NCBI RefSeq assembly: GCF_009389715.1
Contig: NC_052392.1
Span: 35,323,144 to 35,387,143, forward strand
Origin: Phoenix dactylifera
Taxonomy: Eukaryota; Streptophyta; Magnoliopsida; Arecales; Arecaceae
Reading direction: 5' to 3'
Length of the DNA stretch: 64,000 nt
Shown here: positions 15,191-57,025 of the stretch, piece by piece
Layout: each line of letters starts with the position of its first letter
Position numbering within the stretch: position 1 is the first letter of the stretch
Translations under genes and position numbers: made by a program
The notes under the pieces: model-generated
What the model was told of the DNA's origin: nothing
What the model saw: the letters and a program-made list of their open reading frames with translations, nothing else
Database searches by the model: none

Positions 15191-15532
15191 ATATATAACC
15201 ATTTGGCGTTTCTCAAGGGAAAAGTACCCAGAATTTGTAGCCAACTATAATAATTATGCAGGCTGACAGAGAGGATGCCCAGGCATTTATATCAGGTATG
15301 ATACTTTTTGCAGAAAGAAAAACCAAAAGGTCATAGTGAATTTCACTAAAATATTCCATATAAATATTAATTTTGCGAAAAAAGTCATATAAATATTTTT
15401 TTATAAAATCATACATATTTAGATGTTAGATGTTGGTATACCGAGTCTGGATTGGGCGCCCATGATGGGCCGGGCCAACCCTCGTTTTTAAAATTTGAAG
15501 GAAAGAGGGAGGGTACCTCTTGACTCTTTTAA

Positions 15533-30079: not shown

Positions 30080-32220
30080 CTACGTAGTCGGCCTCTGACC
30101 CATCCTCCCCTTGGGATGCAGGCCAGCCTCAAGCGCGCTACCTGGGCCCTCCCGCTGCTCAACAGATACGACCTGCATGACTGCCGCCCTGATATGCTGC
30201 ACAGCAGTCGTGTGGTCCGTGCCCCCTCCTATCATCAGCGGTACGGCCTGACACCCCTCCAGAAGCGGCATGAGGTGGTCCCTGGCCCCACTCCCACTGG
30301 AGGCAGCCTCCCCCTGCTCATCCCCAGCCGGAGGCCGAGGGCCAAACCGAAAGACTCCATCATGGTCGGTGCCCACCCGCACTTCCCATCGCTGAACCTC
30401 ATGCGTCACGCCCAAAGTGAGAAGGGCATGATCGTCGTGTACGGAGGAAACCAGCTCCAAATCTGCTCCCCGATGAGGAGGGCTGAACCGAAAAGGCCCA
30501 GCTGGTTCCTCGCTCTGGCCCTGCAACGCAAGTCCAGCACGACTCCCCAGGCCCGAATCTGAGTGGGCCTGTGGGCCTGCTGCAACTTGGCCCAAAGAGA
30601 CGACCGCGGGCTGGGCCTGAAGGCCCAGCGCCCGCGGTTCCTCAACCGACAGCGCGGCCCGTCGGCCGTGCACATCCTTGCATGGTCCCAGCGAAGCGTG
30701 GGCCCGCTCGATCCCATCACTGGGCGCGATCTCAGTGCCCGGGGCTTGGCGCACCGATGGCGCGTGGCGCGCCAACAGCGCTGGGTGCGCCGACGGCGTG
30801 GGTCGCGCCTCGGGCCGCCCCACCTGCCCGCGACCCCGGCGCCCAGCCTTGTGGGCCCGGTTACGCTGGGCCGGCCCAGTTGGGTTCTCTCGGTCCATAG
30901 GTGCAAGGGCCAGCTGGGCCCCCTGCCCAGGACCCCCAAGTGGGCGAAGGCCCACCTGCAGCCTGGGCCGCTTCTGGGTTTGGGCCCGGGCCGCGGCCGC
31001 CTGGCTGGGCTCAGGATCAGCCCGCACCGGGGCCTTGCTGAGTCGCCGACTCGGCCCTGGGTCCCCTGACTCGGCCAGGAGGTCAACGGCCGAGTCCACT
31101 TGGAGGGGGTCGAAGGGGGTTTCCGGGTGCCCGTCCCCCCCAACGGCTAACGAGGACCGGCGGCGAGCCACCTTTGCCGGCTTCTGCCAGCCGTCGGTGT
31201 CCGCCGGGGACGCCGGCGTAGTTGGGTGAGCCACCAAAAACGGCGGGCAGAGGACGACCCGGGTCCCGAGTGCGCCTCGGTCATCTCCCCCGACCGCGGC
31301 GGCCGATTCTCCCACGGGAGTCGCCGCCGTGTCGCCACCATCCAGGGACCGTAGATCGGTCCCTGTACGTCCTCCCCGACGCCTGGAGCCGGTTGAGCAG
31401 GCCCGCCCCCCGGGTCCACCGCCGCCGAACCCGAACCCCCCTCGGTGCTAGTGGTCGCCGGAAAGCGGCAAGCCGCTGCCTGGTGGCCCATCCGCCCACA
31501 CCGAGAGCACAAGGCCGGGGCATTTTCGAAGACGAAGGGCTACCATCTCACCTTCATCTTTTCTTGGATCAATACTCCCGGTAACAAGGGTTTGGTGGTG
31601 TCAACCACCACCTTCACCCGGGTGAATCCCATCGCCTGCCGCTGCTCTGTGAAGCCGTCCACAGCGATCGACCGGCCCGCCCGAGCGGCGATATGGAGGA
31701 TGGTCGACGTCGACCAGTATTCCGGTGGCAGACGAGGCAGGCGGAGCCACACCATTGCCGTCTGCACGGCCTCCTCCTCGGGTTCGAAATACGGAACCCA
31801 TGCGGTCATGGCGAGGAGTTGCCCGGCCACCACCCACGGGCCCTCGCTTAGTGCCCGGTCCCGGTCCTCCGTCGACCGGAACCTCAGGGCCAGGTAGCCG
31901 TCCGCGAGCGGGACGGCCACCACCTCTTTCAGGTTAGACAGGGCGGCGACATCCTTCGCCACCCACTCGGCTGGGACACGGCGGCCGAAGCTCCGGACCA
32001 CCGCCGCCCGTCCTTCCCACTCGAGCCAAGCCGCCTCAATCGGCTCCTTCGGAAGATGCAACACCTTCGGGAAGCAGCGGCTCAGCCGCTCCACCTCCGC
32101 GGCCGTGGGCCATTGAGTCACCCACGGCCCTGGCCTCGTCCAGGCTCCAAAACCCTTACCATTGCCACTCGCTGCTCCCTCCGTTGCTGTCCCCGTCGAT
32201 TGCTTCCCCTTCCGATCCAT
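30080..32220 (-). pseudogene. LINE ORF1: DUF4283-type domain plus CCHC knuckle (inverted segment)
   Basis: From ATG 32220 leftward, residues about 40-190 form a DUF4283-like RNA-binding region (LSRCFPKVLHLPKEPIEAAW, LRFRSTEDRDRALSEGPWVV, AMVWLRLPRLPPEYW). An in-frame TAG at 31540-31542 stands right before PFVFENAPALCSRCGRMGHQ, whose CX2CX4HX4C pattern (CSRCGRMGHQAAAC) is a zinc knuckle of the sort that ends this domain in plant LINE ORF1. The frame breaks again near 31200-31300, and a Pro/Ala/Arg-rich tail stays open in another frame to about 30080. The product would bind the LINE RNA. This copy has one stop and at least one shift and is non-functional. The several long frames on the opposite strand here are GC-driven shadows. 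Confidence 0.85.
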
Positions 32221-32460
32221 CGGGCGCCCTGCAAGGAAGAAGACGGTGAGTAGGGGGATTCCGTCGAGCTGTTTGCTTAGATTCCGTCGCTCGTCCCGCC
32301 ACCCGGATGGACGGCCGGCCTCCCGCGATGCCGGAGTACCACTTCACCTAGACCGGCGTTGACACCGCCGAACAGTTCTCCGAAAGGAAACTAGCCGTTA
32401 GGAGTTTCCCCAGAGCTCTGTTCCTCTCACTTGGTTCACTACCAGTTCAAATGAGACAGG
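32221..32460 (-). other. LINE 5' leader, inverted, ending at the inversion junction
   Basis: About 240 bp between the ORF1 start and the point near 32460-32475 where plus-strand endonuclease coding begins (SLVNLGFSGSQFTWCNNQ). I cannot fix the junction to the base. Confidence 0.6.
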
Positions 32461-32469
32461 AGGGAGTTT

Positions 32470-35400
32470 CGCTATTTTGTGTCGCGTACTAGCCTGGTGA
32501 ACTTAGGGTTCTCTGGATCTCAGTTTACTTGGTGCAATAATCAGCTCGGCAGTGCTAGGGTTTGGGAGCGTCTAGATAGGGCCTTTGCGTCCCCGGACTG
32601 GATCCTCCGTTTTCCTACCTGCAGGATTAGTCACTTACCTCGGATTGCCTCAGACCACTGCACCCTGCTGATCTCCACATCATCGGGACCTAATCATCAT
32701 AGCCCCTTCCGCTTTGAGAAGGTTTGGCTATCGTACCCCCAGTCCTGGGACATTGTCTGTGAGGCATGGCGCATCCCGGTGCGTGGAGATGCTATGCACC
32801 CGGTGTCGCACAAACTAGAATTGGCCAAGGGGCGTCTCCGACGGTGGAACCGTGAGGTTGTGGGCGATATCTTTCGGAGAGTAGAGGGGGTAGAGACTGC
32901 GATCTCTGAGTTGCAGCAGAAAGAAGATCTAGAAGGTGCGCTCTCGGTGGATGACATGGGTGACCTTCGGGGGCTTCTAGCGACCCACCACTCACTACTA
33001 CGGCAGCACGAGATCTTCTGGCGACAGAAATCTCAAGTTCAGTGGGTACGTGAGGGTGACCGCAATACTAGTTTCTTCCACTGGACTACGATTATCCGGA
33101 GGTAGCGGAGAACGATCCACTCGCTGCGAGACGGGTCTGGACATCGGGTGGAAGGTGAGCCTGCCATTCGTCAGGTCCTGCTGGATTTCTTCCGTGACAG
33201 ATGGATGGAGAATGAGGATTCCGGCGACAGAGGCCATCCCATGAGGATGGATGCGAGAATCAAGGATACTGAGAACGCAGCCCTGGTCCGACCAGTGTCG
33301 GCATAGGAGGTTCAGGAGGCAGTCTGGACTTTGGCTCCAGACAAGGCCCCGGGACCGGACGGGTTCCCCCCATTCTTTTTCCGACAGTACTGGGGTATCA
33401 TTCGGATAGCAGTGGTAGAGGCTATTCAGTGCTTCTTCTCTCAGGCGATGATGCCGGAAGATTGGAAGGCTACCTTCATCACGCTCATTCCGAAGCGTCA
33501 GGAGGCGGCGGGGCCCGGCCATTTCAGACCCATTAATTTGTGCACAACCTTGTATAAGGTTGTGGCCAAAATAATGGTCCGAAGGATGAAGCCCCTACTG
33601 CCCGGCATTATCAGTCAGGAGCAGGGGGCGTTTATAGCTGGCAGAAATTTCTCCCATAATATTCTGCTGGCCCAGGAGATTATGTGGGATCTGCAGCGAG
33701 CATCGAACCGACGTAGCTTGATGGCTATTAAGCTGGATATGGAGAGAGCTTACGACAGGATCAGATGGAGATTTCTTCAGCAGGCACTCGAGGCGTACGG
33801 TTTCACAGGCAGTGGATCGGCTGGGTCATGGGGTGTGTCAGGGGGCCAAAGTTTTCTATCTTGGTCAACGGCACACCTTCACCTTTCTTCGAGTCCACCA
33901 TGGGGCTGCATCAGGGATGCCCTCTATCACCTTATTTGTTTATTCTTTGTGCTGTCATTTTGTCTCGTGATTTGCAAAGGATGTGTGCCCGCAGGGAGCT
34001 GGAGGCCTATGTCCCCGCCCCGGGGGCTAGTCCTCTCTTCCAATTACTTTTTGCTGACGATTGTCTTCTTTTGGCCAGGGCGCGGGTTTCTGATGCACGG
34101 ATCCTTCGGAGGGTGGTGGCGGACTACTGCATGGCGTCAGGTCAGAGAGTTAATTTCCAAAAGTCAGCGGTTCACTTCAGCCCGAGCACGGAGAGCAGGG
34201 TCAGACAGGAGATCCGAGGGATTCTGCAGATACCTGAGCAGGAGGAGACATTGACCTACCTGAGTGTTCCTATCATAGGCCGCAAACTACGGGTGGCAGA
34301 GTGCTCCTACCTGGTGCAGCGGGTGGAGAGCAGGTTGGAGGATGGAGAGCGGCTTCCCTGTATATGATGGGGAGACTAACCTTGATCAGATCAGTGTTGG
34401 GGTCCATGCCAGTATACCTCATGGCCAACATCGTGGTTCCGAAGACGACCTTGCTGAGGGTCGAGCGACTGCTGTGATGAAACTGTAGGGGTCACACGGC
34501 AGAGGCCGCGGGGTGCATTTGGTGGCCTGGGAGCATGTCTGCCGACCTACCAATGAGGGCGGTCTCGGGGTGCAGTCCCTACTGGAGCGACGCGAGGTTT
34601 TCATTGCTTGGCATGCAGCTAGGTTCCTGCTGGAGCCACACAGGCTGTGGAGTCAGGTGATGGCGGCCAGATATGGCCGTGAGGGCTCAAAGGTGGCACG
34701 GAGAGGGCGGCAAGTCTCCTTCATGTGGCGTGAGATTGGGAGGTACTTGTCGACGATGTCGGCAAACACCAGGTGGCTGATTGGCGATGGGCGGAGTATT
34801 GATGTGACTGCGGACCTATGGGTGGATACCGTCCCACTGAGGTGCTGGCCGACCATGATCGATGCTGAGGCAGTGGAGGGGTTGCGGGTCTTCGATCTTC
34901 TTGCCCCAGGAGAGTCAGCATGGGATGACGCTAGGCTACGACAGTTGTTCGGAGGATACCTAGCTGAGAGGATCCGGTCCCCTCTGGTGCCAGGTTGTGG
35001 GGGGCCTGATGTCAGGGTTTGGGGCACCTCTTGCCGGTCCGGTGTCAGACTGGGAGACCTCGCTGGTGTTATCCAGCAGGAGCATGAGCCGGGGCAAGAC
35101 TACACTTGGATCTGGAGGTCAGGGCTTCACCCGAGGGCGGCACTCTTCCTATGGAAAGTGGCATGGGACCGCCTTCCGACGAGAGCAGTGCTGAGCAGGC
35201 GAGGTTGGAGGATCCCAACGGAGTGCGGGACATGCAGTGTTGAGGAGTCGGTTGACCACGTGCTCTTCCAGTGTACATGGGCGAGGTCGGCATGGCTGTG
35301 GGCAGGGTTCCCGCAGGGGGTTTGGTGTGGAAGGCTTCAGTTTTTACAAATGATGCAGCAGTGGTTGGCCCGGCCTCGGACATGTCAGGAAGCTATTCGA

Positions 35401-36114
35401 GCGACCTGCACAACACATCAGATCTGGCTGGCGAGGAACGCCCGCACTTTTGGTGAGCGCAGGGTGTCACCGAGGTTCGTTACAGAATTCGCGCGAGTAC
35501 AGGCATTGGAGATCAGACCTTCTTCGGATGGACCTCTGATAGCTCGAGACACCTGGGGTTCCCTCTCTGCTCCAGCAGCTCCTCAGCTGGTGTTCTTCAC
35601 CTGGAAACCCCCACCCCCGAGTTTTCTTAAGGTCAACTTCGACGGATCAGTCCTGAATGGAGGCACGCGAGGTGGTGCGGGTTTTGTGATACGGAACCTG
35701 CATTCCAGAGTGGTGGCAGTAGGTGGCTGTCAGTTGTTCGGTACGTCGGTTCCCAAGGCAGAGCTACGAGCTGCCTGGGCGGGTCTTCGATATGCGAGGC
35801 AGGTATTGCAGGCTGGCTCGATTGTCTTGGAGGGCGACTCGGCTACAGTTATCAGTTGGATCCAGGAGGGGCTGAGGGGTGAGGGCTCAGACCACCCCTT
35901 GGTTCAGGATATAGGGATGATGTGTGGGGTTGGGGTGGCCATCCAGGCCAAACATGTATTCAGAGAAGCTAATGGGGCAGCCGACTGGGTGGCTACCTTC
36001 GCGGCTCATCATTCAGGGTACATCTTTTGGGTGGGGGAGGGGGAGCTTCCACTGGCTCTCCGTGAGTTAGTATTTTTTAACTTTATTGGGTGTATTCGTA
36101 CACGTATTGTATGA
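32470..36114 (+). pseudogene. LINE ORF2 remainder: endonuclease C-part, reverse transcriptase, RNase H
   Basis: The endonuclease C-part reads NLGFSGSQFTWCNNQ, then RLDRAFASPDW and SDHCTLL. The RT follows: APDKAPGPDGFPPFFFRQYW, FITLIPKRQEA, FRPINLCTTLYKVVAKI, SQEQGAFIAGRNFSHNILLA, IKLDMERAYDRIRW, GLHQGCPLSPYLF and the catalytic FADD at about 34050-34061. The connecting region has the zf-RVT-like cluster (CGTCSVEESVDHVLFQCTWA). The RNase H-like domain starts LKVNFDGSVLNGGTRGGAG and continues LEGDSATVISWIQ and EANGAADW, with a stop at 36112-36114. Damage: TAG 33103-33105, TAG 33304-33306, a frameshift near 33800, and a stop at 34365 with a further frame change before 34513. The RT would be functional only in an undamaged relative. 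Confidence 0.93.
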
Positions 36115-38515: not shown

Positions 38516-40072
38516 TCACTTCGTAGGTGAAGAGTGAAAATAGGACAATGCAGAAAATACTGCCTGCTCGATGGTCAGCAAGAGGAGAAGGGCCGCTGCC
38601 AACACTGAAGTTGTAGCCCATGGGTTGCCAAAATAGTCTCGCCTCAAATCAGCAAGCCATTCGCGCCATTTGACTCCATAAAATCTGATCCATTTGGAGT
38701 CATAAAACCTATTTACTTTCAAAATCTGATTTGCAAGGTAGTTCTTTTCCCAAACATAGTGTATCTGACTGCCCTACTTATTGAAGAGGTCTACCACTTC
38801 TTGATCATTGCTTAGCTTAAGTTCCAGTATACCTTGCGAGTGGAGCAACCGCACGTCCTCAGCCTGGTCGATGATGGAGTTCATAAAGAGTGCGTATATC
38901 GTAATGTACATCTCAGTGTCGAAATAGCACTGCTCGAAAGCTATGAGGTTCCGAAAGAGAGGACCGGTATAGTCACAGATTTGCAGTCGTGGTATCTCCA
39001 TCCGCCCAATCCAAAGCGCTAAAAACAACTTCCAGAGGCATTGCAGTGGCGTGAGCTTCCTTTTCTGGAATTTTATGTTCAAAAAATTGGTTGCCTGTTC
39101 ATTTATCTCGAACTTCACCCCAGCCCTATCGAGCTTTGTCACACTAGGAATCCACTTGGGTGGATATGGCGGAAACCATTGTGAAAGATCGACTTTTGTT
39201 TTCTTCCACTTGCACTCCCTGAGTTCAGGAATACATCCTGATGCAAATGTAGACTCTCTTGGGTTTTCTGAAGGGATCCGAGATGAATAAAATAGATGGA
39301 GCAGATGATGGTATTCTTCGGGGGACTTCTTCTTGAATGATTTGGATTCGTTGGGTTGGATGCCCTTGAAAAGCCCGAGAGCAAGGTCAACAAGATTAAT
39401 CCGTCCATCCTCGCATGGTTTGAGATGATCAAATAGCAATTGGATGATGAAGAAAGGAATTTGGTTCTCAAGCTTCAGCAGATCAAAAACCACTGAACCA
39501 ATAGTGAACAGCCCTGCCACAGTTGGGCCCTCAAGCTGTTCATCCTTCTCGTTGGTATTTAAAACAACATCCCCTTCCCTCACCTCCATCATACACTCTA
39601 GTCTCCTTGGATTCAATGATTCCTTCCTGAGACACATGAGATAAATGATGAAGCACCCATCAAGCAACATGATCAATGCCATATCTGAGGCATTCAGTGC
39701 GGAGAATTCCTGAGAGTAGCGGCTTCGGACCTTCTCATCCTGTTTCTTCAACACCAACAAGCACTCTTTCAACAATTGGCTTGCATGCTCCGGGCTTCGA
39801 TGACGCGATAGAAGGTGCCGAACACACCGCAACTTGTGGTAGTTCATGGAGGAACTCCCAAGGCTGTTGTGGTGAAAAGGTCCGAGGAAAGCAATCACTG
39901 GTTCGTATGCTTTAGGATCCAACTGTCGGATATGCTCGGGGACCTTGAAGATGGTGCATCGTGCCTCGAGATGGTCCATACATTCTTCTAAATTTACTGT
40001 ACGTCTAACTAAATTGATCCACTCCTCATCGTTGGTTGAAACAAGGGATTCCTCGTCCAATTCTTCGTCCAT
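38516..40072 (-). pseudogene. DUF247 family, gene 2, one premature stop before the membrane anchor
   Basis: The frame from ATG 40072 runs 432 codons to TAG 38774-38776. The same frame then continues without further damage to 38516, ending in the family C-terminus (FGNPWATTSVLAAALLLLLT, then a short tail). All family signatures precede the stop: CTIFKVPEHIRQLDPKAYEP, LGPFHH, MALIMLLDGCFIIYLM, DLLKLENQIPFFIIQLLFDH and LDRAGVKFE. At the stop, paralog gene 3 reads FNQLGSQLHY and gene 2 reads FNK-stop-GSQIHY. Translation would give a protein lacking the single hydrophobic anchor: a pseudogene, or a soluble variant. The variable stretch after SSRIPSE is shorter than in genes 1 and 3. Near the C-terminus a short duplication gives YDSKWIRFYGVKW. 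It sits between the LTR-like repeat (downstream) and the CACTA element (upstream). Confidence 0.9.
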
Positions 40073-40785
40073 GTTGCGACCTGATTTATAGAGTACATGA
40101 CCAAGTTACTATAACTTCTAAGACAAATTATCTAACAGACATTTAGTTCAAAAATTAAAATAATTGATTTTTCATGCAAAAATTTCCAGTTGCTGCGAGC
40201 AAGCTACTTTTATTATACAATATCTTGAACATAGGCCCAAAAAATTTGACAGGATGCCTTTTGTATTTAAATTATGCAAGTGACAGTATGCAAGTATTCT
40301 CTAGGATTTAATTATTTTTCATGCAGAAACAAGCAAAAATTTCAAAATTAAGGGATCTAGACATTTGCTAGGAATAAGGATTTCCTGTGGTTCGTTCAAA
40401 ACCATATCACATCCATGATCCAAGAACTGTAAGAGAAATTATTGGAAAGCAACCATTTAAAAACAAAAAAGTTGACAATTTTGACCACAATTTGAAAAAG
40501 ATAAATGACAGATAAATCCTGAAACTTAGAAAACAAAATGAAATAAGTAAGAATAGAGAAATAAAACTTGAATTATCTCTCATGCAGAAAATAAAGATAA
40601 ATAGAATGTAAAGAATTTACATCATATCATCAGGAGTGCTAACTTTTAATTAGTAAAACATAATATTTAAGAATTATGTTGAGAATATGATAATATGTAT
40701 GACAATCATGAATTATTTAAAGTTTCTATTTTTTAAAATTTATGAGAACTTTATTTTATTGGAGAAACTCACAGCCGCCCTTTCC
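40073..40785 (-). promoter_or_regulatory. Conserved upstream block of DUF247 gene 2
   Basis: Homologous to the blocks upstream of genes 1 and 3, with TATAAAT at 40084-40090. It is cut at 40789 by the CACTA insertion, about 0.7 kb upstream of the ATG; the rest of the block continues at 46970. Confidence 0.55.
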
Positions 40786-40788
40786 AGC
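40786..40788. repeat. Left 3-bp target duplication of the CACTA element
   Basis: AGC, repeated at 46970-46972. The uninterrupted sequence is CTTCTAGCTTCACATG at about 15085 in unit C. Confidence 0.85.
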
Positions 40789-40799
40789 CACTACAAGAA

Positions 40800-41110
40800 A
40801 ATACATATTCAGCGACTAAAATTCTATTCGCCGAATAACCATATTTGGTCGCCGAAACCTTTTCGCGACTAGCATACTCTTCGTCGCCGAACCCTAGTCA
40901 CTGAAAGGTTTTGGCGACCAATATTGTGTGGTCACCTAAGATACACCAACAACGACCAACATTTGGTTGCCGAAGAAAATTTTCAGCGACCAAATCTGTT
41001 GTCGCTAATTTCAACGCCGACCAAATAGTTGGTCGTGGAATGTTTGTCTTCCGCTGCCAAAAAAGTGGTCACTGAATGTTTATCTTCCCCCACCAATAGT
41101 TTGGTCGCAG
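40800..41110. repeat. Left subterminal repeat array of the CACTA element
   Basis: Many short direct and inverted copies of GGTCGCCGAA, GCGACCAA and TTGGTCGYNGAA. They are mirrored at 46490-46960 and are expected to be TnpA-type binding sites by analogy with En/Spm. Confidence 0.85.
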
Positions 41111-41640
41111 AATATATTGGAATGCATTGGGCTTAATATTAACCTGTATTAACCTGTATTAACCTGTATTTAATTAACAATTCAAATTATAAGCTTAATA
41201 TTTAATTTTGGGCTCGTTCCAAATCCTGTACAACCAACACAGCCTATCCAATATCCATATTGCACAATACATTTGCTCATCCAAATAGAAGTATACACAA
41301 TGTTGGAGAATCCATAATCATTCATTATAAATATCATCATCTATAAGTCTAAAGTCAAGCATATCTATTAACCATACATCACAATGTTTCATCCATACCA
41401 TATGTTAAGGTGATAATCATCACCAAACACATCAAAATGTAAATTAAAAATCTCAAAATATCTGATCTTGCTATTCCTCCAAACAACCATCATGTAGACA
41501 AAAATATTCTTATACCAAAAACTGGATTCTGCTTGTAGACAACTCCACCATGATCATCTGAACAAAAGCTATCCATGTACCAAAAACTAGATTTCACATG
41601 CTCATAACTCCACGATGTATCTGAGAAAGCAAAAAAAATA
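41111..41640. other. CACTA interior, unassigned
   Basis: AT-rich. AACCTGTATT is tandemly repeated three times at 41142-41170. No coding motif. Confidence 0.5.
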
Positions 41641-41645
41641 CACAA

Positions 41646-41975
41646 TCAATAACCACATGTCAAAAATAATAAACTAAAATTCAAGTATAAGTTCACAATA
41701 ACATTTCGCTTAATTTGGTCAAAATCTCTAAATAACCTATGTAATATAAATGAGAATACATACCAACGAGTATTTGTACCACCAGTTGAATACATGGCCC
41801 CATCATGATGGATAGATGACTTGTGCGTTTGAGTCTTTTTCTTTAAGAACTTTGTCACCAAACTTGTAAGATGTGCAATTTGCTTCTGTTCTTCCTCTCG
41901 CTCTTTCCTTTCCTCCTCATGCTCTCTCCTCTCCTGCTCCAATTGCCTCCGCAGCTCCTCTCCTGTTAGTTACCG
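41646..41975 (-). pseudogene. Coiled-coil fragment inside the CACTA element, possibly transposon protein C-terminus
   Basis: The minus-strand frame reads EELRRQLEQERREHEEERKE followed by REEEQKQIAHLTSLVTKFLK, a strongly charged heptad-like helix. Glu/Arg/Gln-rich C-terminal helices of this type are common in the second gene of plant CACTA elements (Ptta/En/Spm-type proteins). A host origin is equally possible. No start or upstream domain was found. Confidence 0.4.
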
Positions 41976-42186
41976 GTATAGTTATTGTTGCAACAAATGA
42001 CTGAGATCCTGAACAATGATTGTACTCAAGCTTTTCTTTTTTGGAGTATTCAGCTGAGTACTTTGTCCGCCAGTTGATATTGGTCAGCTCACTCATGTTG
42101 AGCTTGTTTGGTGTTTGCTAGCACAAAGATGGAAGTAGTTTTCAGTCTATTTGGTTTCAACTGGGCTGTATGTAACTAACATGGAC

Positions 42187-42340
42187 TTAGAGTCCAACTT
42201 CATTGAGATTTTGGTTTGGATTAAGGACTTTGAGATGACCAACATAATCAAGTTTCAGGTTTGGGTGCACATTGAGTTGGTTAACTTTAAGTTTGTCTAA
42301 TCCATTTGCATATCCACTATTCCTGCTCTTAGGTGAGGCA
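42187..42340 (-). other. Short exon-like open stretch, origin unknown
   Basis: The minus-strand frame GFASPKSRNSGYANGLDKLK, continuing to a stop at 42187, has protein-like composition and lies just downstream of the CYP38 exon in the same orientation. I do not recognise it. Confidence 0.25.
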
Positions 42341-42711
42341 AATCCAATTATATTTATGAAAACATAATGTGATCGATACAAGCATGAAATGAAAACTAGT
42401 TTCTCTAGCATCTCGTAGAAGAAGCTATTTGACCTGTGCTTGTGTGAGCAGCACTTTTTATTAAGCATTATGAAAATCAGCTTCTTTCAAACTCATTCCT
42501 TTTTATTTTTAAGTTGAAGAATGGTGAAACTGCTTTTTGTAAAGCAAAGCCAAAGATGAGCACAATGTACTCATTTAAGAACATCATTTTACATGACATA
42601 CTGTACATGTATAATTCAGTAATTATAAAACAAAAATCACTTGAGTGACTGCAGAAGTTGTAAGGAATAGCAAATAAGATCTCAGAATAAGATTTTTTTA
42701 GTTATGCTTAC

Positions 42712-43002
42712 TCTCTCAACTAAATCCAATGCTCTAACCCCGGAGACGTTGAGACTGTCTGTGATATCCTCAAGAGGCTTTTGAACCTCCCGAATGGCTT
42801 TGTTATTGATTGGCAATGCATACCTCAACAAGGCACCAGGATCCTTAATAGGTGGTCCAGAAATTAGCACTGACAGATCAGGCAGCACAGGGCCTCAAGG
42901 GGATGCATGTGCAGGCCAGTCCAATGTAGGAACACCAGTGACCAATCCAATTGCCAATGCTATGGAAACTGCACATTCCTTTAGGTGAAATGAGTTCTTC
43001 TT
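42712..43002 (-). pseudogene. CYP38: Captured exon of CYP38 (thylakoid-lumen cyclophilin-like protein)
   Basis: A 291-bp exon with an acceptor (TTGGGCAG before 43002) and a donor (AGA/GTAAGC after 42712). The translation reads [19 protein letters not shown] (the lumenal targeting hydrophobic segment), then [40 protein letters not shown] and [17 protein letters not shown]. This is the N-terminal helical region of plant CYP38, a thylakoid-lumen immunophilin-family protein needed for photosystem II assembly. One in-frame TGA lies between AHASP and GPVLPDLS, so it no longer encodes a continuous peptide. The cyclophilin domain and all later exons are absent. It lies inside the CACTA element, so it is captured cargo and not the functional locus. 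Confidence 0.88.
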
Positions 43003-43707
43003 CTGCCCAAGAATTCAAAAGATATACAAACTGCTCTCAGCATTTACCAAAAGAAACTGTTTGTGGTTTTAATAAGAGAACACAAAAAAGTGACTGCCAC
43101 AGAGAATGATATTGAATTGGCAGAATTAATTCTATTCTCTCCAATAAGAAAAGAAAGAAATTCAACCTATATCTTATGAAAGAATCCATGTCAAGCACCA
43201 AGAAGGCAAGCCGATCTAATGGTACAAAAATATAAACGGACGTGGTTCGAAAATCGGAGCATACTTCAAGGAGCAATTTTGATAAGAATTATACTATGGA
43301 GATGGAAATTAATTTTTGTAATATAGAATAAAACTGTCCAATCTAACCAACAAACTCTGGAAGAAATGAATGAAAACAACTGATTATTCACCTGACCCAT
43401 GAAGAACTTCTCTCCCTCAAACACTTTGATCTTCTTAAAAGGAAGTATGGCCATATTGATTTACAGTTCATTGTAAGCATATCAGGTAGACAGGAGATCT
43501 ATCTTATGAGACCAAAAAAAAAAAGCAGGAGAAATATCTAACTGATTGGTTTTGCAGTTTTTTTCTTAACAACATACCATCTTAATCTAACTGAGACAGG
43601 AATGTGTATGTGCCTTGTTAATTGCAATATGCCATCTCATTCTAACTGGGACAGGAATGTATTCTCTGTTGTTCATATAAAATAAATAACGATTCATTAG
43701 TTAATAC
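43003..43707. other. CACTA interior between the two captured genes
   Basis: Mostly intron-like. A short minus-strand stretch ending PFKKIKVFEGEKFFMGQ before GTGAATAA (near 43396) could be another exon piece; its origin is not recognised. Confidence 0.4.
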
Positions 43708-44423
43708 CTTTTTTTGATGCTTCCACCAAGGTAACATGAAACTCTCTAAAGCATTCTGGTCCAAGAGCTCCATATAGAATAGCAACTGGACTGGCAATAC
43801 TTGAACCAAAATATATGTGATCAAAATCAAAAAGTTCAGCCTACTCAGCAGATCCCATAGCTCTGGTGAAATCCAAATAAACATATAACCTCACTATATA
43901 ACAAGGAGGCAAAAAAGATCAACAAGATTTGCAATAACAGAAATAGAAATACAACAAAAGCACAGAAAAGGTGGATATGACTTACAGTTTGGCTGAAGTG
44001 TCAAGCCATGAAAGAAGATCAGTAACATTGAACAGTAGTGCACTACCAGTATCTACCCAGCAACTACTTCCTCCAGGGCTTCACAGGTTTCTGCATATGA
44101 GAAAAGGTTCTGCCTTGACTATTGAAATTGGCTCTGACAAGTCTCCCATAACATGTTCTGAGTTGGTTTCGTCGTCAGAAGGATAAGAAGATAAAGAATC
44201 CTCCGCCAACTGCCAGTAGAGCACTAGTGTAGGAGATGCTAACCGAAGCATAAGAGAAAATTCAAAAACTGATCCCAAGGGTTCACTTAGAAGCAAGCGC
44301 CCATCATGGACAATTTTGTGAATGCAGCATTTGGCTGTCAAACAATCTGAGCCTTTATCTGGTTCTAACCAGAGATCAGTAAACTCCCAAAACAGGTTTT
44401 TCCGTTCCTTAGAGAGCAATTCT
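43708..44423 (-). pseudogene. UGGT: Captured exons of UDP-glucose:glycoprotein glucosyltransferase (UGGT/EBS1)
   Basis: Two exons. Exon a is 44423-43986 (438 bp; acceptor TATCAACAG, donor ACT/GTAAGT). It reads ELLSKERKNLFWEFTDLWLE, then LLLSEPLGSVFEFSLMLRLA, SPTLVLYWQLAEDSLSSYPS and, after a TGA at 44081-44083, CWVDTGSALLFNVTDLLSWL. Exon b is 43862-43708 (acceptor TTCACCAG, donor AAG/GTATTA). After a TAG it reads [20 protein letters not shown] and [20 protein letters not shown]. These are consecutive N-terminal exons of the plant ER folding sensor UGGT (EBS1), in its lumenal thioredoxin-like region. The catalytic glucosyltransferase domain is absent and two in-frame stops are present, so this is a dead capture inside the CACTA element. 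Confidence 0.88.
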
Positions 44424-45310
44424 CTGTTGATATATGTTGTAATAATTCTTTAGTAACCTATCAAACTGAAGTGCTCCTTAATCAAAGAAGGTATAAACTT
44501 AAAAGACAAATAACAAGCAAAATAATACTTCAATGCCAACAATGCGTCATACACCAGTGCCAACAATGCAACTATAAACTGAAAGCAGAAACAAAAATTA
44601 TCCTGCAAGAGAACAACACAGTCACTGATTTCTCAGTTACTCACACCTTTACTTACCACCAATAGACAGTTCTTGGCTAGGGCAAGCATCCAGATTCCAT
44701 CAGGCAAGCCTACTTTTGAATTTCTTTGGAATTTCATTTGTTCAGGAAGGGGAAAAGAATGCTAACTTTTGTGCACAACTTGCCTGATGGAATCTGGATG
44801 CTTGCCCTACAAGTCTCAGCATTCTTACCAAAGGGGGAACTATTTTACTAGAAAAAACAAGTTAACTTTACAAAGAAAACGAAATTAAAATTATGCAACT
44901 AATTCAACCATCTACGGTGCAAAAAGAGAGGATTTTCATCAAACCCATCCAGAATTAGTCTTTCTCTTTAGAAAATTCAATTTCTTGGTTAAGAAAAGCA
45001 CTATGCATTGCTGCAAAGGCCATACCAAACACAAAGAAGAAAATCTAATATAGTGGAGAAGAAAATCATGAGAAGTGATCCAAGAATCTCAGCCTTCTTA
45101 CCGAATGGAACTATTCAAAAGGATACAATTATAAAAAAATAATCCCATTTCCTCCAGTGAGGAAACAAATAGCATTAATTATCCAAAAAAGTGAATATTA
45201 ATCGAATTACTCATCCAATTCATTCAGATTATGACAGCTTCCCGATCGGATATATCTCTACATTGCTCATATTTCCATTTAAAAGTCTACTTGCATATAA
45301 ATAAGTGGAA
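44424..45310. other. CACTA interior upstream of the UGGT exons
   Basis: Intron-like and AT-rich. It contains the 31-bp inverted repeat listed separately. No frame with a known motif. Confidence 0.45.
44678..44809. repeat. Perfect 31-bp inverted repeat, hairpin with 70-bp loop
   Basis: Arm 1 (44678-44708) and arm 2 (44779-44809) are exact reverse complements across 31 bp (core GGCAAGCATCCAGATTCC). A transcript across it would fold into a long perfect stem. It may be a small-RNA source, or a by-product of the assembly of this composite element. Confidence 0.9.
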
Positions 45311-45314
45311 AATA

Positions 45315-45600
45315 ATCTAAAAACGCCTACGTTGGAAGAGAACTGGATCAACCGGTACCTCTCCCCATCCGGAATCGAGTTTGCAAAACCCCGATGGAGA
45401 AGAAGAGCAGCAGAACCCTAGGCGACGAAACCAGAGGGGTCTCCGGTGGCCATCGAAGCAGCTCCGCCTTGCCGAAATGGAGGATCTTGGGGCGGCAGCG
45501 GAGAAGCGGCGCTGGGACTGGGAGGATAGGAGGGCCGCCATGGGAGCTAGAGTTTCGAGAGGAGAGGGATTGGGGAAGCAAGGGTTTTGGAGTTAACGCA
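45315..45600 (-). pseudogene. Gene first-exon-like sequence in the CACTA element (possible transit-peptide exon)
   Basis: The minus-strand frame from ATG 45541 reads MAALLSSQSQRRFSAAAPRS, then SISARRSCFDGHRRP and RRLGFCCSSSP. It is Ser/Arg/Ala-rich with few acidic residues, like a plastid transit peptide, and is followed by possible AG/GT donors near 45355. CYP38 begins with a plastid transit peptide, so this may be its exon 1, with the UGGT exons lying between it and the CYP38 exon at 43.0 kb. Assignment to CYP38 is a guess from composition and orientation. Overlapping frames on both strands reflect high GC. Confidence 0.35.
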
Positions 45601-45990
45601 AAGGAGAGAGGATAAAATGGTGGTGAGAAGAAATAGTGGAAATCGGAGAGCCGCTAGATGTCCCCACGGTGTGGATAAGGCTGTCCGGAATCCGGACGGT
45701 CATCCCTGCTGTGGATGGCCTTCTGGTTAGGGATTTGTTGGATTTGGGTTAGGAAGGAGGAGGAGGGGTTAGGGATCGCGTGGGGAGAGGGGGGGATGGG
45801 TGGGTGCCGGGGCCACGGGTTGAGCGGCTGCAGGGGTTTTGGGAAGGGGGAGGGGGGAAATTTGGGCGGGGCGGCGGCACTTAGTTTCATTTTGTATTTT
45901 TCTCTTTCAATCTTTTTTTTTATTATAATTATTCAAAAATAATATTTTTAATATTTTTAGAATTAAAAATTAAATTTGGTGGCGAAAATT
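45601..45990 (-). promoter_or_regulatory. GC-rich, promoter-like region upstream of the captured first exon
   Basis: G/C-rich with CT-rich motifs on the minus strand (45.76-45.88 kb), then an AT-rich stretch. It resembles a captured 5' flank; no definite core promoter element is assigned. Confidence 0.3.
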
Positions 45991-46314
45991 TCTGCCAATA
46001 ATCCATCACTGCTAAAAATAATCTTTTAAAAATTTATAAATACTTGTGTTACGATTTTTATGATGGCTGAATTTGTCACTGTCTAGTTACAATTTCGGTT
46101 ACCAGTTTTGTGACAAATATCCCGTCACTACGGTGGTTACTAAGTTTTGTCGCCTACCCTACCTGCGTATTTTGTGACCGGTCTGTTATTAATCTGTCAC
46201 TAAGTTCACACCACGGTGACCAAATTTTTGTATATCATTAATCCGTCATAAATAGTGACAGATAACGGGCCGTTACTAGTTTTCCGTCACCATACGCTTA
46301 TTTTCTGGTAGTGA
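45991..46314 (-). mobile_element. Second CACTA-like terminus embedded near the right end
   Basis: The minus strand begins CACTACCAGAAAATAAGCGT at 46314 and is followed by its own subterminal words (GTGACGG, GTGACAGATTAATR), distinct from the GGTCGCC array of the host element. No matching opposite end was found inside the element. Confidence 0.5.
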
Positions 46315-46489
46315 AAGTTGTGGGATTGAGATTCAGCCGAAGAGACAAGGATATGCCTAAGTGAATTAAGGTGTTAAACGACACCGTTTGAAAATAAGCA
46401 GTTTTTTTTTTTTTGAACTTAGAAATTAACATCTTACAGGGGCTAGTACAACATCGTTCGGTTTTACGGGAACTTTTCACTACCAAAAG

Positions 46490-46969
46490 TTTGGTCACTA
46501 AAAAACTCAAACTTTCTGCCCAATTTTTTCATTGGAAAAAGGTGCCATTCGTAAAAGTTTTTCTGGACTAAATTTTTTTTAGTCGCTAAAGGTGAACCTT
46601 TAAGGACCAAAATTTAGTCGCCAAAAGTTTTACCTCCAGCTCGTGTGAAATATTGGACTCGTGCCAATTTGGTATTGCGTTTCCACGACCAAATATACAT
46701 TTAGTCGGTGTAGGACAATTATTCAGTAACTAACAAAAATGTTGGTCGCAGATAGCCTTATTTTCAGCGACCAAACTTTAGTCGCCAAACATTTTACCTC
46801 CACCCCGCCAACTTGGTTTTGATTTTCCGCGACCAAATATGCATTTAGTCGGTGTAGGACAATCATTCAGTAACTAACAAATATGTTGGTCGCAAATAGC
46901 CTTATTTGCAGTGACTACTATTCATTTAGTCGCCGAAAGTGGTCACTGAAAGTGTATTTTCTTGTAGTG
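46490..46969. repeat. Right subterminal repeat array and terminus of the CACTA element
   Basis: Repeats of TTTAGTCGCCAAA, GCGACCAAATATRCATTTAGTCGG (twice, 46687 and 46831) and GTTGGTCGCARATAGCCTTATT (twice), ending TTTTCTTGTAGTG at 46969. A CACTACCAAAAG-like start at 46478 suggests further layering. Confidence 0.85.
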
Positions 46970-47050
46970 AGCTTCACATGCCAATAAATTTAATATAAAA
47001 ACAAAAGCTATGTGCCCCAAAAAATTCCAACCACAACAAATTTCAGTCAT

Positions 47051-49200: not shown

Positions 49201-51125
49201 TGTGATATTGGAGAAAAAAATTCAGCCATGGCAAATTTCACTCACTATTTAAAATATAAAGTTTAATTACTGGAGGATTCAAGTAAGGTATTTGATAGTT
49301 AGTGTTTATACCACATTCCAACCTATAGTGAGGGTCTAAAGGCTAGTTAGATGATGGCCACATGGCATTATAAGAGACTAAAAAATAATGAGAAATTGCT
49401 TTGGAGAGTCAACTCAAATTGAACGAAACACATGTGGAAGCCACGAACTAGGATATAGATATAGATCTGATATGATAGGGATACATAACAAGAGTTAAGA
49501 TTTGAATAATAATATTAGGCTGATCAAGTCCCCACTAGGTACTGCACAAGATAGACCGAGTGTTACCCGAGCCTCAGGTCGAGTTCCAGAGGTAGAAGGT
49601 ATAGGCCGTTTATAAGTATGGCATGTCAGAGTCAATCGTGCGTTATGTTAAGACATCACCCTAACGGATGAAGCCTCGGAGCAAGATGTGAGATGCAGAA
49701 GCAGTTGCTAACAGATTAAAACATGGAAAATTGAGTAAAAGGGTAAAACCAGCTATAGCAACTATCAAAAGGTGGATGAGTAGGGACAGGTGTTAATGCT
49801 GAAAAGAGATAGCTATCCAGTAGTTAGGAAAAATATATATATGTGTTCAATTGTAACTCTGAAAGGGCCCTGCAACCACCAATCGAATTGATTACCAAGT
49901 TTTTTTTATCAATTTTTCTTTCAAAATATCCTTAGCCTTTTTATTACTAGGCAATAGTTCATTTCTTGTAGATCCTTATCAGCACTTCCTCGAGAAGGTG
50001 GAACCTCGGTAGCAAAAATTATTGAAGGTCAAGACAATAGAACCCACTGTCATCTATTTTTTATCCTATTCAAATAATAATGGCATGCATGTGCGTTCAT
50101 CCAACCGAGTCCATTGGTTTATTTTTCTGTCTGCCTTATCTTGAGAGTGGGGAGAAAAGAGCACCAATAGTTGATTATAAAATCTTTTCTCATTGAAATA
50201 GTAGATACAGATATAGTTTTATGTGTTTTGGAGGCTCCTTTGACGTCCTATATATAGAATTTTAGGAGTGGATATCTTATATTGACTTTCGAATCTTTGA
50301 TGTGTAGGTATGAGGCGTAAGAATTTTGTACGCAAGTATTTTAGACCTTATAAAATACATCCAATGATTTCGATTAGTATTTTCAACCTCTATCATTGAA
50401 CTTGATAATGGATCTAAACTCTACACCTTTCATTTACTACAACTGCACCTTAAGAGAGTGAGTTGATATTCTAAACTTTTTACCATATGAAACTAATACG
50501 ACTATTAAGAAAAGACATGTAATATTTACATATTCTTATCAACTTTGCTTCTTTCTCACAACCATACTGAATATAGAATTCTCCATTTAAAACTGAAGAA
50601 ATTAAATACTTAAATTTCTTCAAGATTTTGCTTCACTAAGATATAGGTTTTTCGCCAAGCTTGTGAAATCATAACATTCAATATAAAAGCATGTCCAAAT
50701 TTGATGATGTACATAGATTAGAAAAATATGCTTAAGCAATAATGCAATAAATAAAAGGATATCCAAATCAAATTTCGACAACTGGAATAAATATCCAATC
50801 CTCTCGAGGGTAGATTTCTTCTTCGGTTATTCTACATAGGCTTTTTGGTCTTGTGACAGCAAACGTCCATCAAAAGATGTTCCTTTAAAGGATGGTTGTC
50901 ATCACGGGACGAAAAAGCCTATGGAGTATCATCGTCGTCGTAGCAGTAGTCCGATAGAATAACATAGAAAAAATCTATCCTGGTAGTGACAGTAGGACTA
51001 CTAGTAGCACTTCTCTTCTTTAATATCTTCTCCATATATAAACCCCTAATTTTACCATGTATTCTTATTTGTACTCTTTATTTTAATAAATATGACTGGG
51101 GAAGCATCCGGCTTACTCCATTTAT
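49201..51125. other. Intergenic DNA, partly paralogous to 60.2-61.26 kb
   Basis: 49.55-51 kb shares words with 60.23-61.25 kb (GAGTTCCAGAGGTAGAAGGT, GCAGTTGCTAASAGATYAAARCATGG, CCTTATCTTGAGAGTGGGGAGAAAA, TACATCCAATGATTT). No gene is recognised. A 100-codon frame at 50986 runs into the tandem repeat below and has no motif. Confidence 0.6.
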
Positions 51126-51655
51126 GCTTAAAAAAAAAAAAAGAGACAAACATCTTTTAAAGACCATTGCTATTGTATTACAGAAAATGCTCGGATTGCT
51201 TACTTGCATGTCCATGTTTCAATCACAGCTAAGCAGGATAATCATGACCAAGGCATGCCTTTGGGACATTCAGTATAATACAGTGTGATCCAGAAACCAT
51301 TTGGCTTAAAAAAAAAAAAGAGACAAACATCTTTTAAAGACCATTGCTATTGTATTACAGAAAATGCTCGGATTGCTTACTTGCATGTCCATGTTTCAAT
51401 CACAGCTAAGCAGGATAATCATGACCAAGGCATGCCTTTGGGACATTCAGTATAATACAGTGTGATCCAGAAACCATTTGGCTTAAAAAAAAAAAAGAGA
51501 CAAACATCTTTTAAAGACCATTGCTATTGTATTACAGAAAATGCTCGGATTGCTTACTTGCATGTCCATGTTTCAATCACAGCTAAGCAGGATAATCATG
51601 ACCAAGGCATGCCTTTGGGACATTCAGTATAATACAGTGTGATCCAGAAACCATT
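51126..51655. repeat. Three tandem copies of a 178-bp unit
   Basis: GCTTAAAAAAAAAAA starts at 51126, 51304 and 51481. The units (AAATGCTCGGATTGCTTACTTGC, TAAGCAGGATAATCATGACC) are identical apart from A-run length, so the duplication is recent or homogenised. One diverged unit is at 61264-61400. Confidence 0.95.
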
Positions 51656-53097
51656 TGTTTTTAAAAAATAAAAACAAGATAACCAAATATATTTTCTGTA
51701 TTGATTTTATTTTATTTTTTTAAAAAAAGGAAAAAATTAGTACCAAATAGGAACAGCTAATTTAATATATTGAACAAGGATAAATAGAGAAAAATAGTAC
51801 AGATTGCCAGCCAAATGATCCCTCAGATCTAGTCTCTTGTATTTAGGACAATAATTGGCAGAGCAATGCATGGAATTAACTAACACAACATATCCCAAAT
51901 ACAGCACATGCCTAGAAAAATAAAGAAAAATAGAAAAATAGATTAGTATGCATTTAAGTCAGGACCAAATGGAGTCTAGAATTGGGTCTAATCCAAAATA
52001 AAGAAAAACAGAAAAACTATAAATTAGAAAGTATAATATGTCACCCAAAATAAAGAAAAACAGAAAAACTATAAATTAGAAAGTTATTTCGTTTTTTTAA
52101 AGAAAATATGTCACCCAAAATATGGGGCATCAAAATTAAGTCAATACATGTTAAGGATTTGGCATTCAAATAAGATGTTATAAGAAAAATTCTTATTTTA
52201 GTGGAGCTAGGATTAGACATGAGGAAGGCTGTATGCGAGGGCGGATACAGAGCGAGAGAAAAGTACCGGTGAAATCAAATTAGTTAGAGGGAATGTTGAG
52301 ATAGAGACCTCATGACATGCCACTTAGAAGTCGTACCAAGGAGAAAGAGAGAGACCAAAACAGACCTTAAAACTCACAATTGCGTCCTAAGCTGATGCAA
52401 TGGTAACAGTTTTTTGGATACAATCAGCAAGTGCATTCTCTAATATCCATCTATCTTTTCCAAAACAGAGCATTGGTGTCGTTACAAAACTGAAAGAAAT
52501 AGCTGCATTTTTCGAGTATTGGCAGAGTTGGGAGCTGTCCTTGCAGCTGGCTATTTTGAAATTAAATACATCTAAACGAAGCTTCAGTCATTTTGATTTA
52601 TTCTTGTAAGATAAGTCCAAGAGCCTGCATTCTTTCTCATGGACATTCAATCCTTGCACTAGGCAAAACATTTTGAAGATTTATGATCGCAGAACTCGAT
52701 AAAAAAAAGTTTATATGACATAAATCCGTAAATAAGTCAACACATGCTGTCAAGGAGTTTTTAGGGCTTGGTCTTGGAACACCTGTTGCTTACTTTACTC
52801 AATGAAGTGCTCCTCATTTCATTCATTATGTTGTGACTGTCCAAAACTTGTTCGACACAACTTTTAAAGGAAATGTAAAAAATCCACAATGCTACAATTT
52901 CTAGAAAACTATGTTTCTAAATATTAGAGGGACAAATGAGGCAAAATCATAGATGCTGTGCACAATGCCCATTAAACAAATATATTGTCAATAAGTGTTC
53001 TTGAGTAAAATGTGTTTAAAATATCAAGATGAAACTTAACTGGATGCAGGGTAACCAAGAACAGAATTTAATTTCAATTCCATGCGCTGAAATCTTG
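51656..53097. repeat. Unit B flank, containing the LINE empty site
   Basis: Paralog of 28990-29640 joined to 36142-36990. The junction sequence GAGAGAAAAGTACCGGTGAAATCAAATTAG (52253-52282) is uninterrupted. A local duplication of TATAAATTAGAAAGT lies at 52019-52084. Non-coding. Confidence 0.9.
52259..52272. other. Pre-integration (empty) site equivalent of the LINE
   Basis: AAAAGTACCGGTGA occurs once here, between flanks that match both sides of the LINE in unit A. Confidence 0.93.
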
Positions 53098-55510: not shown

Positions 55511-57025
55511 CTATTTTAACTTTGTAGATGGAGAGTGAACATAGGACAATACGGAAAATACTGTCTGCACGACGGTCAGCAAGAGAAGAAGGGCCGCTGC
55601 CAACACTGAAATTGTAGCCCATGGGTTGCCAAAATAGTCTCGCCTCAAATCAGCAAACCATTCGGGCCATTTGACTTCATAAAAGCTGTTTACTACCTCA
55701 ATCTCATTTGCAAGGTAGTTCTTTTCCCAAGCATAGTGTAGCTGACTGCCCAGCTGATTGAAGAGTTCTGCCACTGCTTGTTCATTGTTTAGCTTATGTT
55801 CCAGTATGCCTTCCAAGTGGAGCAACCGCACGTCCCCAGCCTGGTCGATGATGCAGTCCATAAAGAGTGCGTATATCGTAATGTACATCTCAGTGTCGAA
55901 ATAGCACTGTTCGAAAGCTATGAGGTTTCGGAAGAGAGGACGGGTATAGTCATGGATTTGCAGTGGTGGTATCTCCATCCGCCCACTCCTAATCCCACTC
56001 CTTATCTGGAATTTGATGTTCAAGAAACTGTCTGCTTGTTCCTTCCCCTCGAACTTCACCCCAGCCCTGTCGAGCTTCGTCGCACTAGGAATCCACTTGG
56101 GTGCAGATGTCGAAGACCCTCGTGAAGTCGGTGCAGATGTCGGAGACCCTTGTGAAGGAGCAACTTCCCCTGGTGCAGATGTATACTCCGCTGGCTTTTC
56201 TGAAGGGATCCGAGATGAATAAAATAGATGGAGCAGATGATGGTATTCACCGGGGGACTTCTTCTTGGACTTCTTGAATGATTCGGATTCCTCGGGATGG
56301 ATGCTCTTGAAAAGCTGGAGAGCAAGGTCAACAAGATTAATCTGTCCATCCTTGTATGCTTTGAGATGATCAAATAGCAATTGGATGACGAAGAAAGGAA
56401 TTTGGTTCTCAAGCTTTAGCAGATCAAAAACCACTAAACTAATAGTGAACAGCCCTGCCACAGTTGGGCCCTCAAGCTGTTCATCCTTCTCGCCGATATT
56501 TAAAGCAACCTCCCCTTCCCTCGTCTCCCTCATATTATCTAGTCTCCTTCTTGGCTTCAATGATTCCATCCTGGGACACATTTTTAGCATGAGATAAATG
56601 ATGAAGCACCCATCAAGCAACATGATCAATGCCATATCTGAGGCATTCAGTGCGGAGAATTCCTGAGAGTAGCAGCTCCGGACCTTCTCATCCTGTTGCT
56701 TCAACTCGAACAAGCACAGGTTCAACAATTGACTTGCATGCTCCGGGCTTCGGTGACGCGATAGAAGGTGCCGGACACACCGCAACTTGTGGTAGTTCAT
56801 GGAGGAACTCCCGTGGCTGTTGTGGTGAAAAGGTCCGAGGAAAGCAATCGCTGGTTCGTATGCTTTAGGATCCAACTGTCGGATGTGCTCGGGGACCTTG
56901 AAGATGGTGCATCGTCCCTCGAGATGGTCCATACATTCTGCTAAATTTACTGTACGTCTAACTAAATTGATCCACACATCGTCGTTGGTTGAAACGAGGG
57001 ATTCCTCGTCCGATTCTTTGTCCAT
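55511..57025 (-). CDS. DUF247 (UPF0481) family protein, gene 3, intact
   Basis: Single-exon 504-codon frame. Signatures: CTIFKVPEHIRQLDPKAYEP, LGPFHH, NASDMALIMLLDGCFIIYLM, DLLKLENQIPFFVIQLLFDH, LDRAGVKFE and a C-terminal hydrophobic segment (VLAAALLLLLTVVQTVFSVL, about residues 473-493) predicting one membrane anchor. It is closer to gene 2 than to gene 1; both share MDxExDEESLVSTND at the N-terminus. The Ser/Ala/Pro/Thr-rich variable stretch (about residues 290-325) contains a short internal duplication in the DNA (GTGCAGATGTCGGAGACCC-like at 56102 and 56132). Function is unknown for the family at large; some grass members act at self-incompatibility loci. The start is supported by conservation with gene 2. 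This is the best candidate for a functional gene together with gene 1. Confidence 0.93.
   Translation of the reverse strand: MDKESDEESLVSTNDDVWINLVRRTVNLAECMDHLEGRCTIFKVPEHIRQLDPKAYEPAIAFLGPFHHNSHGSSSMNYHKLRCVRHLLSRHRSPEHASQLLNLCLFELKQQDEKVRSCYSQEFSALNASDMALIMLLDGCFIIYLMLKMCPRMESLKPRRRLDNMRETREGEVALNIGEKDEQLEGPTVAGLFTISLVVFDLLKLENQIPFFVIQLLFDHLKAYKDGQINLVDLALQLFKSIHPEESESFKKSKKKSPGEYHHLLHLFYSSRIPSEKPAEYTSAPGEVAPSQGSPTSAPTSRGSSTSAPKWIPSATKLDRAGVKFEGKEQADSFLNIKFQIRSGIRSGRMEIPPLQIHDYTRPLFRNLIAFEQCYFDTEMYITIYALFMDCIIDQAGDVRLLHLEGILEHKLNNEQAVAELFNQLGSQLHYAWEKNYLANEIEVVNSFYEVKWPEWFADLRRDYFGNPWATISVLAAALLLLLTVVQTVFSVLSYVHSPSTKLK

Follow-up and report, generated by a model that had tools for sequence, protein, structure and literature searches.

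A date palm Pack-CACTA element with a UGGT fragment nested in an intron of a captured CYP38 fragment

The stretch of date palm DNA considered here (Phoenix dactylifera; assembly GCF_009389715.1, contig NC_052392.1, positions 35,323,144 to 35,387,143 of the forward strand), hereafter the window, is 64,000 nucleotides long. At 40789-46969 it contains a non-autonomous CACTA element of 6,181 bp, a Pack-CACTA, which carries fragments of two unrelated host genes, CYP38 and UGGT, in one orientation. An earlier note on this DNA had proposed such an element, and both its ends and the identity of its cargo bear this out. The inverted terminus CACTACAAGAAAATACA is present at both ends, the first 28 nt of which are 89% complementary, and subterminal GGTCGC/GCGACC and related motifs cluster at 40.79-41.12 and 46.48-46.97 kb. 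These ends, which we call type A, span 40789-42035 on the left (plus strand, with subterminal repeats to ~41115) and 46318-46969 on the right (plus strand, again with subterminal repeats). Copies of AGC at 40786-40788 and 46970-46972 form a 3-bp target-site duplication. The insertion is strongly proven, because related units within the window itself, repeats that contain DUF247 genes, keep the unoccupied site. Homology of the occupied unit to the unit at 13438-15197 breaks at 40788 and picks up at 46970, and empty-site units at ~15090 and ~49140 have a single AGC at the insertion point. In a third related unit, near 57650, one side of the insertion point is deleted. The CACTACCAAAAG motif at 46478 was considered as a short element in its own right and rejected, because it is flanked by TTT, which does not agree with AGC.

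A Pfam profile search of the six frames of 41116-46470, with stops read as X, detected no transposase domain. Only the CYP38 and UGGT families exceeded their cut-offs in this search. Across the Pfam searches as a whole, TBCC, CAF1A, DUF2924, BioT2, Tfb4 and LRR_4 gave weak matches under theirs. A coiled-coil-like, charged reading frame inside the type A left end (~41.75-42.0 kb, minus strand) has no Pfam match above cut-off, and we take it to be, perhaps, a remnant of the element's own gene.

The larger piece of cargo is the 5' part of CYP38, which lies on the minus strand at 42103-45690. In the direction of the gene, it comprises 5' untranslated or upstream DNA (45542-45690), exon 1 (45359-45541), intron 1 in two parts (44810-45358 next to exon 1 and 43003-43540 next to exon 2), exon 2 (42712-43002) and part of intron 2 (42103-42711). 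Exon 2 has 97 codons, is of phase 0-0 and carries one stop. Its identification is secure, resting on an AG acceptor, a GT donor, and matches to the Pfam family CYP38_PsbQ-like (E 5e-16, 59.6 bits, cut-off 27) and to Arabidopsis CYP38 in PDB entry 3rfy (E 4e-27). The possible transit-peptide exon that had been suggested at 45.3-45.6 kb also exists, as CYP38's own exon 1. This exon encodes the transit peptide in 61 open codons between an ATG and a phase-0 donor, and was proposed by phase and order before being matched in the genome.

The second piece is a 1,266-bp UGGT insert on the same strand (43541-44806; UGGT homology at 43544-44759), which contains an intron between two exons. The upstream exon (43986-44423) matches positions 10-120 of Pfam Thioredoxin_12 (E 5e-16, 59.5 bits), and the following exon (43708-43862), part of the first thioredoxin-like domain, matches positions 124-172 (E 1e-12, 48.5 bits; cut-off 26.1 for both). 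These successive positions, together with AG acceptors and GT donors, identify both as real UGGT exons, and neither matched a PDB chain at E up to 1. Because the exon upstream of this insert belongs to CYP38 itself, the UGGT piece is nested within CYP38 intron 1. The exons of the two genes do share an element and an orientation, as the earlier note had it, but they are not set side by side.

Relatives of the element preserve the arrangement without UGGT. We searched the whole genome (773,078,369 bases in 2,391 contigs; C-numbers are contig labels of the present analysis). In the C15 and C108 elements, as in the CYP38 gene on C4, the sequence before 43541 joins the sequence after 44806 directly, and intron 1 of a second CYP38 gene, on C11, likewise has no UGGT. 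Three element copies do carry the insert, those in the window, on C409 and on C49, and its junctions are the same in all of them.

In both CYP38 genes, exon matches cover almost all of the Arabidopsis protein. Each also has exon 1, which in the C11 gene lies ~1.4 kb upstream of exon 2. The captured piece probably derives from the gene now on C4, to judge by their similarity. The window sequence is 94-97% identical to this gene in introns 1 and 2 (96.9% over the intron 2 part) and 93.4% identical in exon 1. Across the 149 bp upstream, where the match reaches 45690, identity is 89.9%; stretches of ~190 and ~280 bp of the C4 intron 1 are missing from the element. The C11 gene was rejected as donor, since its exon 2 is only 91% identical to that of the window (synonymous divergence 0.34, nonsynonymous divergence 0.033) and C4 is far closer. 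The low ratio of nonsynonymous to synonymous change in this comparison is also seen between the two genes themselves (21 synonymous and 9 nonsynonymous differences), and therefore reflects constraint on the genes. The exon 2 stop results from one substitution, TTA in the C4 gene to TGA in the element, and is present in all four exon 2-bearing element copies (window, C409, C49 and C15). This stop, and only this one, originated in the element lineage.

The UGGT insert has a different history. All 11 scored matches fall in the three elements, in seven units on C2 or in the unplaced contig C1954. The unit at C2:1.547 Mb is 98.3% identical to the insert, and in a tree of UGGT sequences the three element copies group with it and with C1954, their nearest non-element sequences. 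Both stops of the insert are found in C2:1.547 and C1954, and the second is also present in C2:1.588 and C2:1.682. Each of the three exons described in the earlier note does carry an in-frame stop, as it stated, but those in UGGT predate capture; they were inherited, because the insert derives from a UGGT duplicate on C2 that already carried them. At C2:1.547-1.840 Mb, the seven N-terminal copies would represent one UGGT gene and six upstream partial duplicates, because the GT24 catalytic domain has strong matches in a single place, C2:1.870-1.873 Mb, which accounts for five of 13 listed stretches. The other eight stretches, although they exceed the family cut-off, match only weakly (E 4e-5 to 9e-4) and are likely to belong to other glycosyltransferases. 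Across C2:1.547-1.873 Mb, six copies of the 5' region, 38-48 kb apart, precede the complete-looking gene. The last of them is 80 kb from the gene's own 5' region, and several have stops or frameshifts.

The ends of the element belong to an abundant family. The type A left end matched at 93% identity or more in all 40 scored places (of 307 candidates), nearly all over 40789-41960, and in 11 places its 41970-42035 part matched as well. Just inside the type A right end, at 45878-46313, lies the right end of a second CACTA type, which we call B (terminus CACTACCAGAAAATAAGCG at 46313); no type B left end was found in the window element. Its wider family was traced through CYP38 exon 1, for which 40 of 75 candidates were scored and matches overlapping the exon by at least ~100 nt were counted. 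Among 45 listed matches, 25 contained exon 1: the two genes and 23 others, window included. Alongside the window, 17 of the 22 other exon 1 copies were read, at ~10 kb each (C409 in two stretches). Type B right ends accompany type A right-end sequence in 15 of these 18 copies, while the remaining three (C34, C8 and C505) have type B only. Ten copies are two-ended for type A, with target duplications that agree at three of three positions in seven and at two of three in three; two of the ten, on C70 and C404, share one insertion site. C34 and C505 each have an intact type B element that contains CYP38 exon 1 and is flanked by ACT/ACT duplications. Some hybrids retain the type B interior seen in C34 and C505, and others have different middles. 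The window element is itself a hybrid, a type B right end lying within its type A ends.

The cargo has moved as a unit, for the UGGT-bearing copies in the window, on C409 and on C49 have different flanks. The target duplications of the C409 and C49 copies agree at two of three positions. Copies with their own target duplications point to mobility by a CACTA transposase, presumably acting in trans. A FastTree phylogeny of exon 1 unites the three UGGT-bearing copies in a clade, with C15 and C108 next to it (support 0.96 and 0.97). The C409 copy is interrupted by ~5 kb of extra DNA (L020:8191 to L021:4653), probably a later transposon insertion, with ~6 bp repeated at the joints. The C15 relative (C15:2.755-2.773 Mb) is one-ended: right ends of both types accompany CYP38 exons 1 and 2, exon 3 follows ~12.5 kb on, and no left end was found in the part of the locus that was read. 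Other cargo also occurs in the family: type B and hybrid elements combine CYP38 exon 1 with exons of a carnosine N-methyltransferase gene. The type B element on C34 carries such exons (PF07942, 40.9 bits, cut-off 27) in the same orientation as exon 1. All 12 scored matches to this stretch, on 11 contigs, share a contig with a CYP38 exon 1 match 0.9-5 kb off (~12 kb on C211), apart from the one on C16. That locus, C16:9944774, for which no CYP38 match was listed, may be either the donor gene or a further element.

The junctions of the UGGT insert bear on how it arrived. CTA lies on both sides, at 43538-43540 and 44807-44809. UGGT homology stops at 44759 and is followed by a 19-nt filler (44760-44778) and then, at 44779-44809 on the plus strand, by a 31-nt perfect inverted copy of 44678-44708. 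This copy ends in CTA, which is also present at the pre-insertion site. An inverted-copy scar is the expected leftover of templated break repair with a strand switch, and the inverted copy between CTA flanks suggests break repair from an unlinked template. The start of the filler resembles the reversed right flank over 9 nt (AAGAATGCT at 44755-44763 versus AGCATTCTT at 44818-44826), a likeness judged by eye and suggestive only. As a microRNA gene, the 31-nt perfect hairpin was rejected: it is an inverted UGGT copy, and had no Rfam match at gathering thresholds.

The same junctions raise the alternative that the UGGT piece is a small mobile element, Pack-type or other, which jumped into CYP38 intron 1 with a CTA duplication. 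Such a jump would explain the CTA on both sides and the discrete 1,266-bp insert, with its clean pre-insertion site in C15 and C108. Against it, the two boundaries of the insert show no inverted repeat (7 of 20 nt at best), the inverted arm is one-sided and only 31 nt long, and no free-standing copy occurs among the 11 of 11 scored matches, all of which lie in C2 units, C1954 or the three elements. We consider this origin unlikely. We also doubt that both captures arose by fusion of neighbouring CACTA insertions, through tandem insertion and remobilisation. The UGGT insert is bordered on both sides by CYP38 intron and not by CACTA ends, and no A- or B-type termini were found in the 3.4 kb of sequence read around any of the eight non-element UGGT copies. 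Yet the A/B hybrid structure does fit neighbour fusion, which the available text of two papers describes as a model for Pack-TYPE elements (PMC8903248, PMC13317346).

The reading that we favour, and hold with good confidence, is that of a hybrid Pack-CACTA element built stepwise and moved as cargo by a transposase from elsewhere. In the first step, a type B CACTA element would have taken up the 5' portion of CYP38, with the C4-located gene as the probable source. The right part of such an element would then have become enclosed between abundant type A ends. Third, in a lineage holding exon 1 to intron 2, a break may have occurred in CYP38 intron 1; its repair would have copied ~1.2 kb from the stop-bearing UGGT duplicate on C2, and a short inverted template switch would have sealed it. 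Finally, the UGGT-bearing element would have moved to at least three places, the window insertion among them. Because copies without the UGGT piece persist in the genome, the sequence of events is directly visible: CYP38 appears to have come first and UGGT later, followed by spread. Divergence from the closest donors is 1.7% for the UGGT insert (versus C2:1.547) and ~3-6% for the CYP38 introns (versus C4). Between the window and the C49 and C409 copies it is 0.4-0.6% in UGGT, ~1% in and around CYP38 exon 2, and 2-5% across the ends and the type B segment. Transitions make up most of the changes between copies in the right end and the type B segment (23 of 25, for example), a pattern that is possibly methylation-driven.

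Several observations weigh against this scheme. CTA on both sides could equally be expected from a nested insertion with a 3-bp target-site duplication, and most of the 19-nt filler, as well as ACT at 43541-43543, is unaccounted for. The order of the first two steps is not forced, and none of the hybrids read holds both B ends within type A. The C15 relative shows a single A end in the stretch read, with its CYP38 exon 3 ~12.5 kb away. Further, window-to-C15 identity, at 98.3%, falls to 94-96% right of 45050, which may reflect exchange between copies, blurring the order. Two separate CYP38 captures split at 45050 were rejected, since identity between the window and C4 in intron 1 stays at 94-96% on both sides, with lower values in exon 1 and the 149 bp upstream of it.

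Whether any of this cargo is expressed is a separate question. Transcripts are conceivable, because all of it lies in sense downstream of the captured CYP38 start. The chimeric spliced transcript envisaged in the earlier note is possible to this extent, but UGGT and CYP38 exons do not join in frame, because the first UGGT exon needs phase 2 where CYP38 exon 1 supplies phase 0, and the second ends in phase 1 where CYP38 exon 2 needs phase 0. With UGGT skipped, CYP38 exons 1 and 2 join in frame as far as the stop. The suggestion that the element might yield antisense RNA against the donor genes gains no support, every captured exon being in sense orientation.

These features might still indicate that the element functions as a chimeric gene or gives rise to regulatory RNA, under the control of the captured CYP38 5' region and with a possible effect on the same-strand DUF247 gene downstream. 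CYP38 upstream DNA, the ATG and a splice donor are all kept, and exon 1 is full-length and open in 12 element copies compared, but it is disrupted in C404, C34 and C505, and each of the other three exons carries a stop. Exon 1 variants among the 12 copies comprise 13 synonymous and 22 nonsynonymous changes for 46 and 137 sites (p 0.08), and the longer UGGT exon differs from C2:1.547 by 4 synonymous changes (97 sites) and 4 nonsynonymous ones (338 sites; p 0.08). In CYP38 exon 2, three of the four element copies were counted against C4, with C49 omitted for gaps; each showed 0-2 synonymous changes (73 sites) and 4-5 nonsynonymous ones (218 sites), with no synonymous excess in any of the three. 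None of these results is significant. The numbers of changes are low, and two of the three comparisons tend towards fewer nonsynonymous changes per site. Moreover, the DUF247 frame already ends early relative to its paralogue. The available text on Tgm-Express1 of soybean shows splicing of such exons (PMC1947982), but given the broken phases and the stops we regard a working gene or RNA source here as very improbable, and a protein function of the cargo as unlikely.

The surroundings of the element are themselves repetitive. Pfam DUF247 (PF03140) was found in three reading frames of the window, all on the minus strand and within related repeat units (12690-14417, 38774-40105 and 55511-57058), and further 5' partial units lie near 48.4 and 59.6 kb. 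The element inserted 717 bp upstream of the middle frame (frame start 40072), which stops early, at 38774, compared with the third. Elsewhere in the window, a ~178-bp tandem repeat is present in three copies at 51118-51673, with a related single copy 10 kb away (61266-61402), and direct repeats with ~473-bp spacing and 88-95% identity occupy 2750-4634. A hAT transposase remnant and a G+C-rich region like a long interspersed nuclear element, with zf-RVT and reverse transcriptase-like/RNase H (RVT_3) domains, lie at 26291-27505 and 31540-36114.

Uptake of unlinked host genes by DNA transposons is still debated. Here, the capture models can be tested directly, because the closest donor, UGGT-less relatives and the UGGT copies occur in one genome and the junctions are resolved to the base. 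A cargo can also come from a stop-bearing duplicate, and therefore in-frame stops need not mean decay after capture. We give about even weight to the idea that this locus documents a second way in which DNA transposons capture genes: a break in a resident element is mended from an unlinked template, which is copied with an inverted snap-back switch. If this is true, the copying step could lengthen existing cargo without fusing neighbouring elements. A 2026 review, in its available text, held that a route by which DNA elements acquire unlinked gene fragments might exist, undiscovered (PMC13317346). Among titles and abstract openings retrieved for UGGT or CYP38 with transposons, or for date palm CACTA elements, none concerned this element, in a search where subscription literature was barely covered.

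Pack-MULEs, like the present element, capture and shuffle fragments of host genes. They belong to a different superfamily, with long terminal inverted repeats and longer target duplications, whereas the element here has CACTA ends and a 3-bp duplication. Closer parallels are the Pack-CACTA elements of Arabidopsis and maize, which, according to the available text of their description, are also non-autonomous, have CACTA ends with host-gene DNA inside and gain internal sequence stepwise; in maize, several loci can contribute to one element (PMC8903248). Unlike the elements described there, the date palm element has its second piece in an intron of the first, taken from a stop-bearing duplicate and marked by an inverted-copy scar, and it draws on two CACTA types for its ends and interior. 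The soybean element Tgm-Express1, as far as the accessible text describes it, is similarly a CACTA element, of ~5.7 kb, with several gene fragments that retain exon/intron structure (PMC1947982). It has five fragments and proven chimeric splicing, whereas two genes are represented here; in the date palm, unlike in that account, relatives show the stage before the second gain. The element is thus of a known kind, but its record of stepwise cargo gain is unusually clear and complete.

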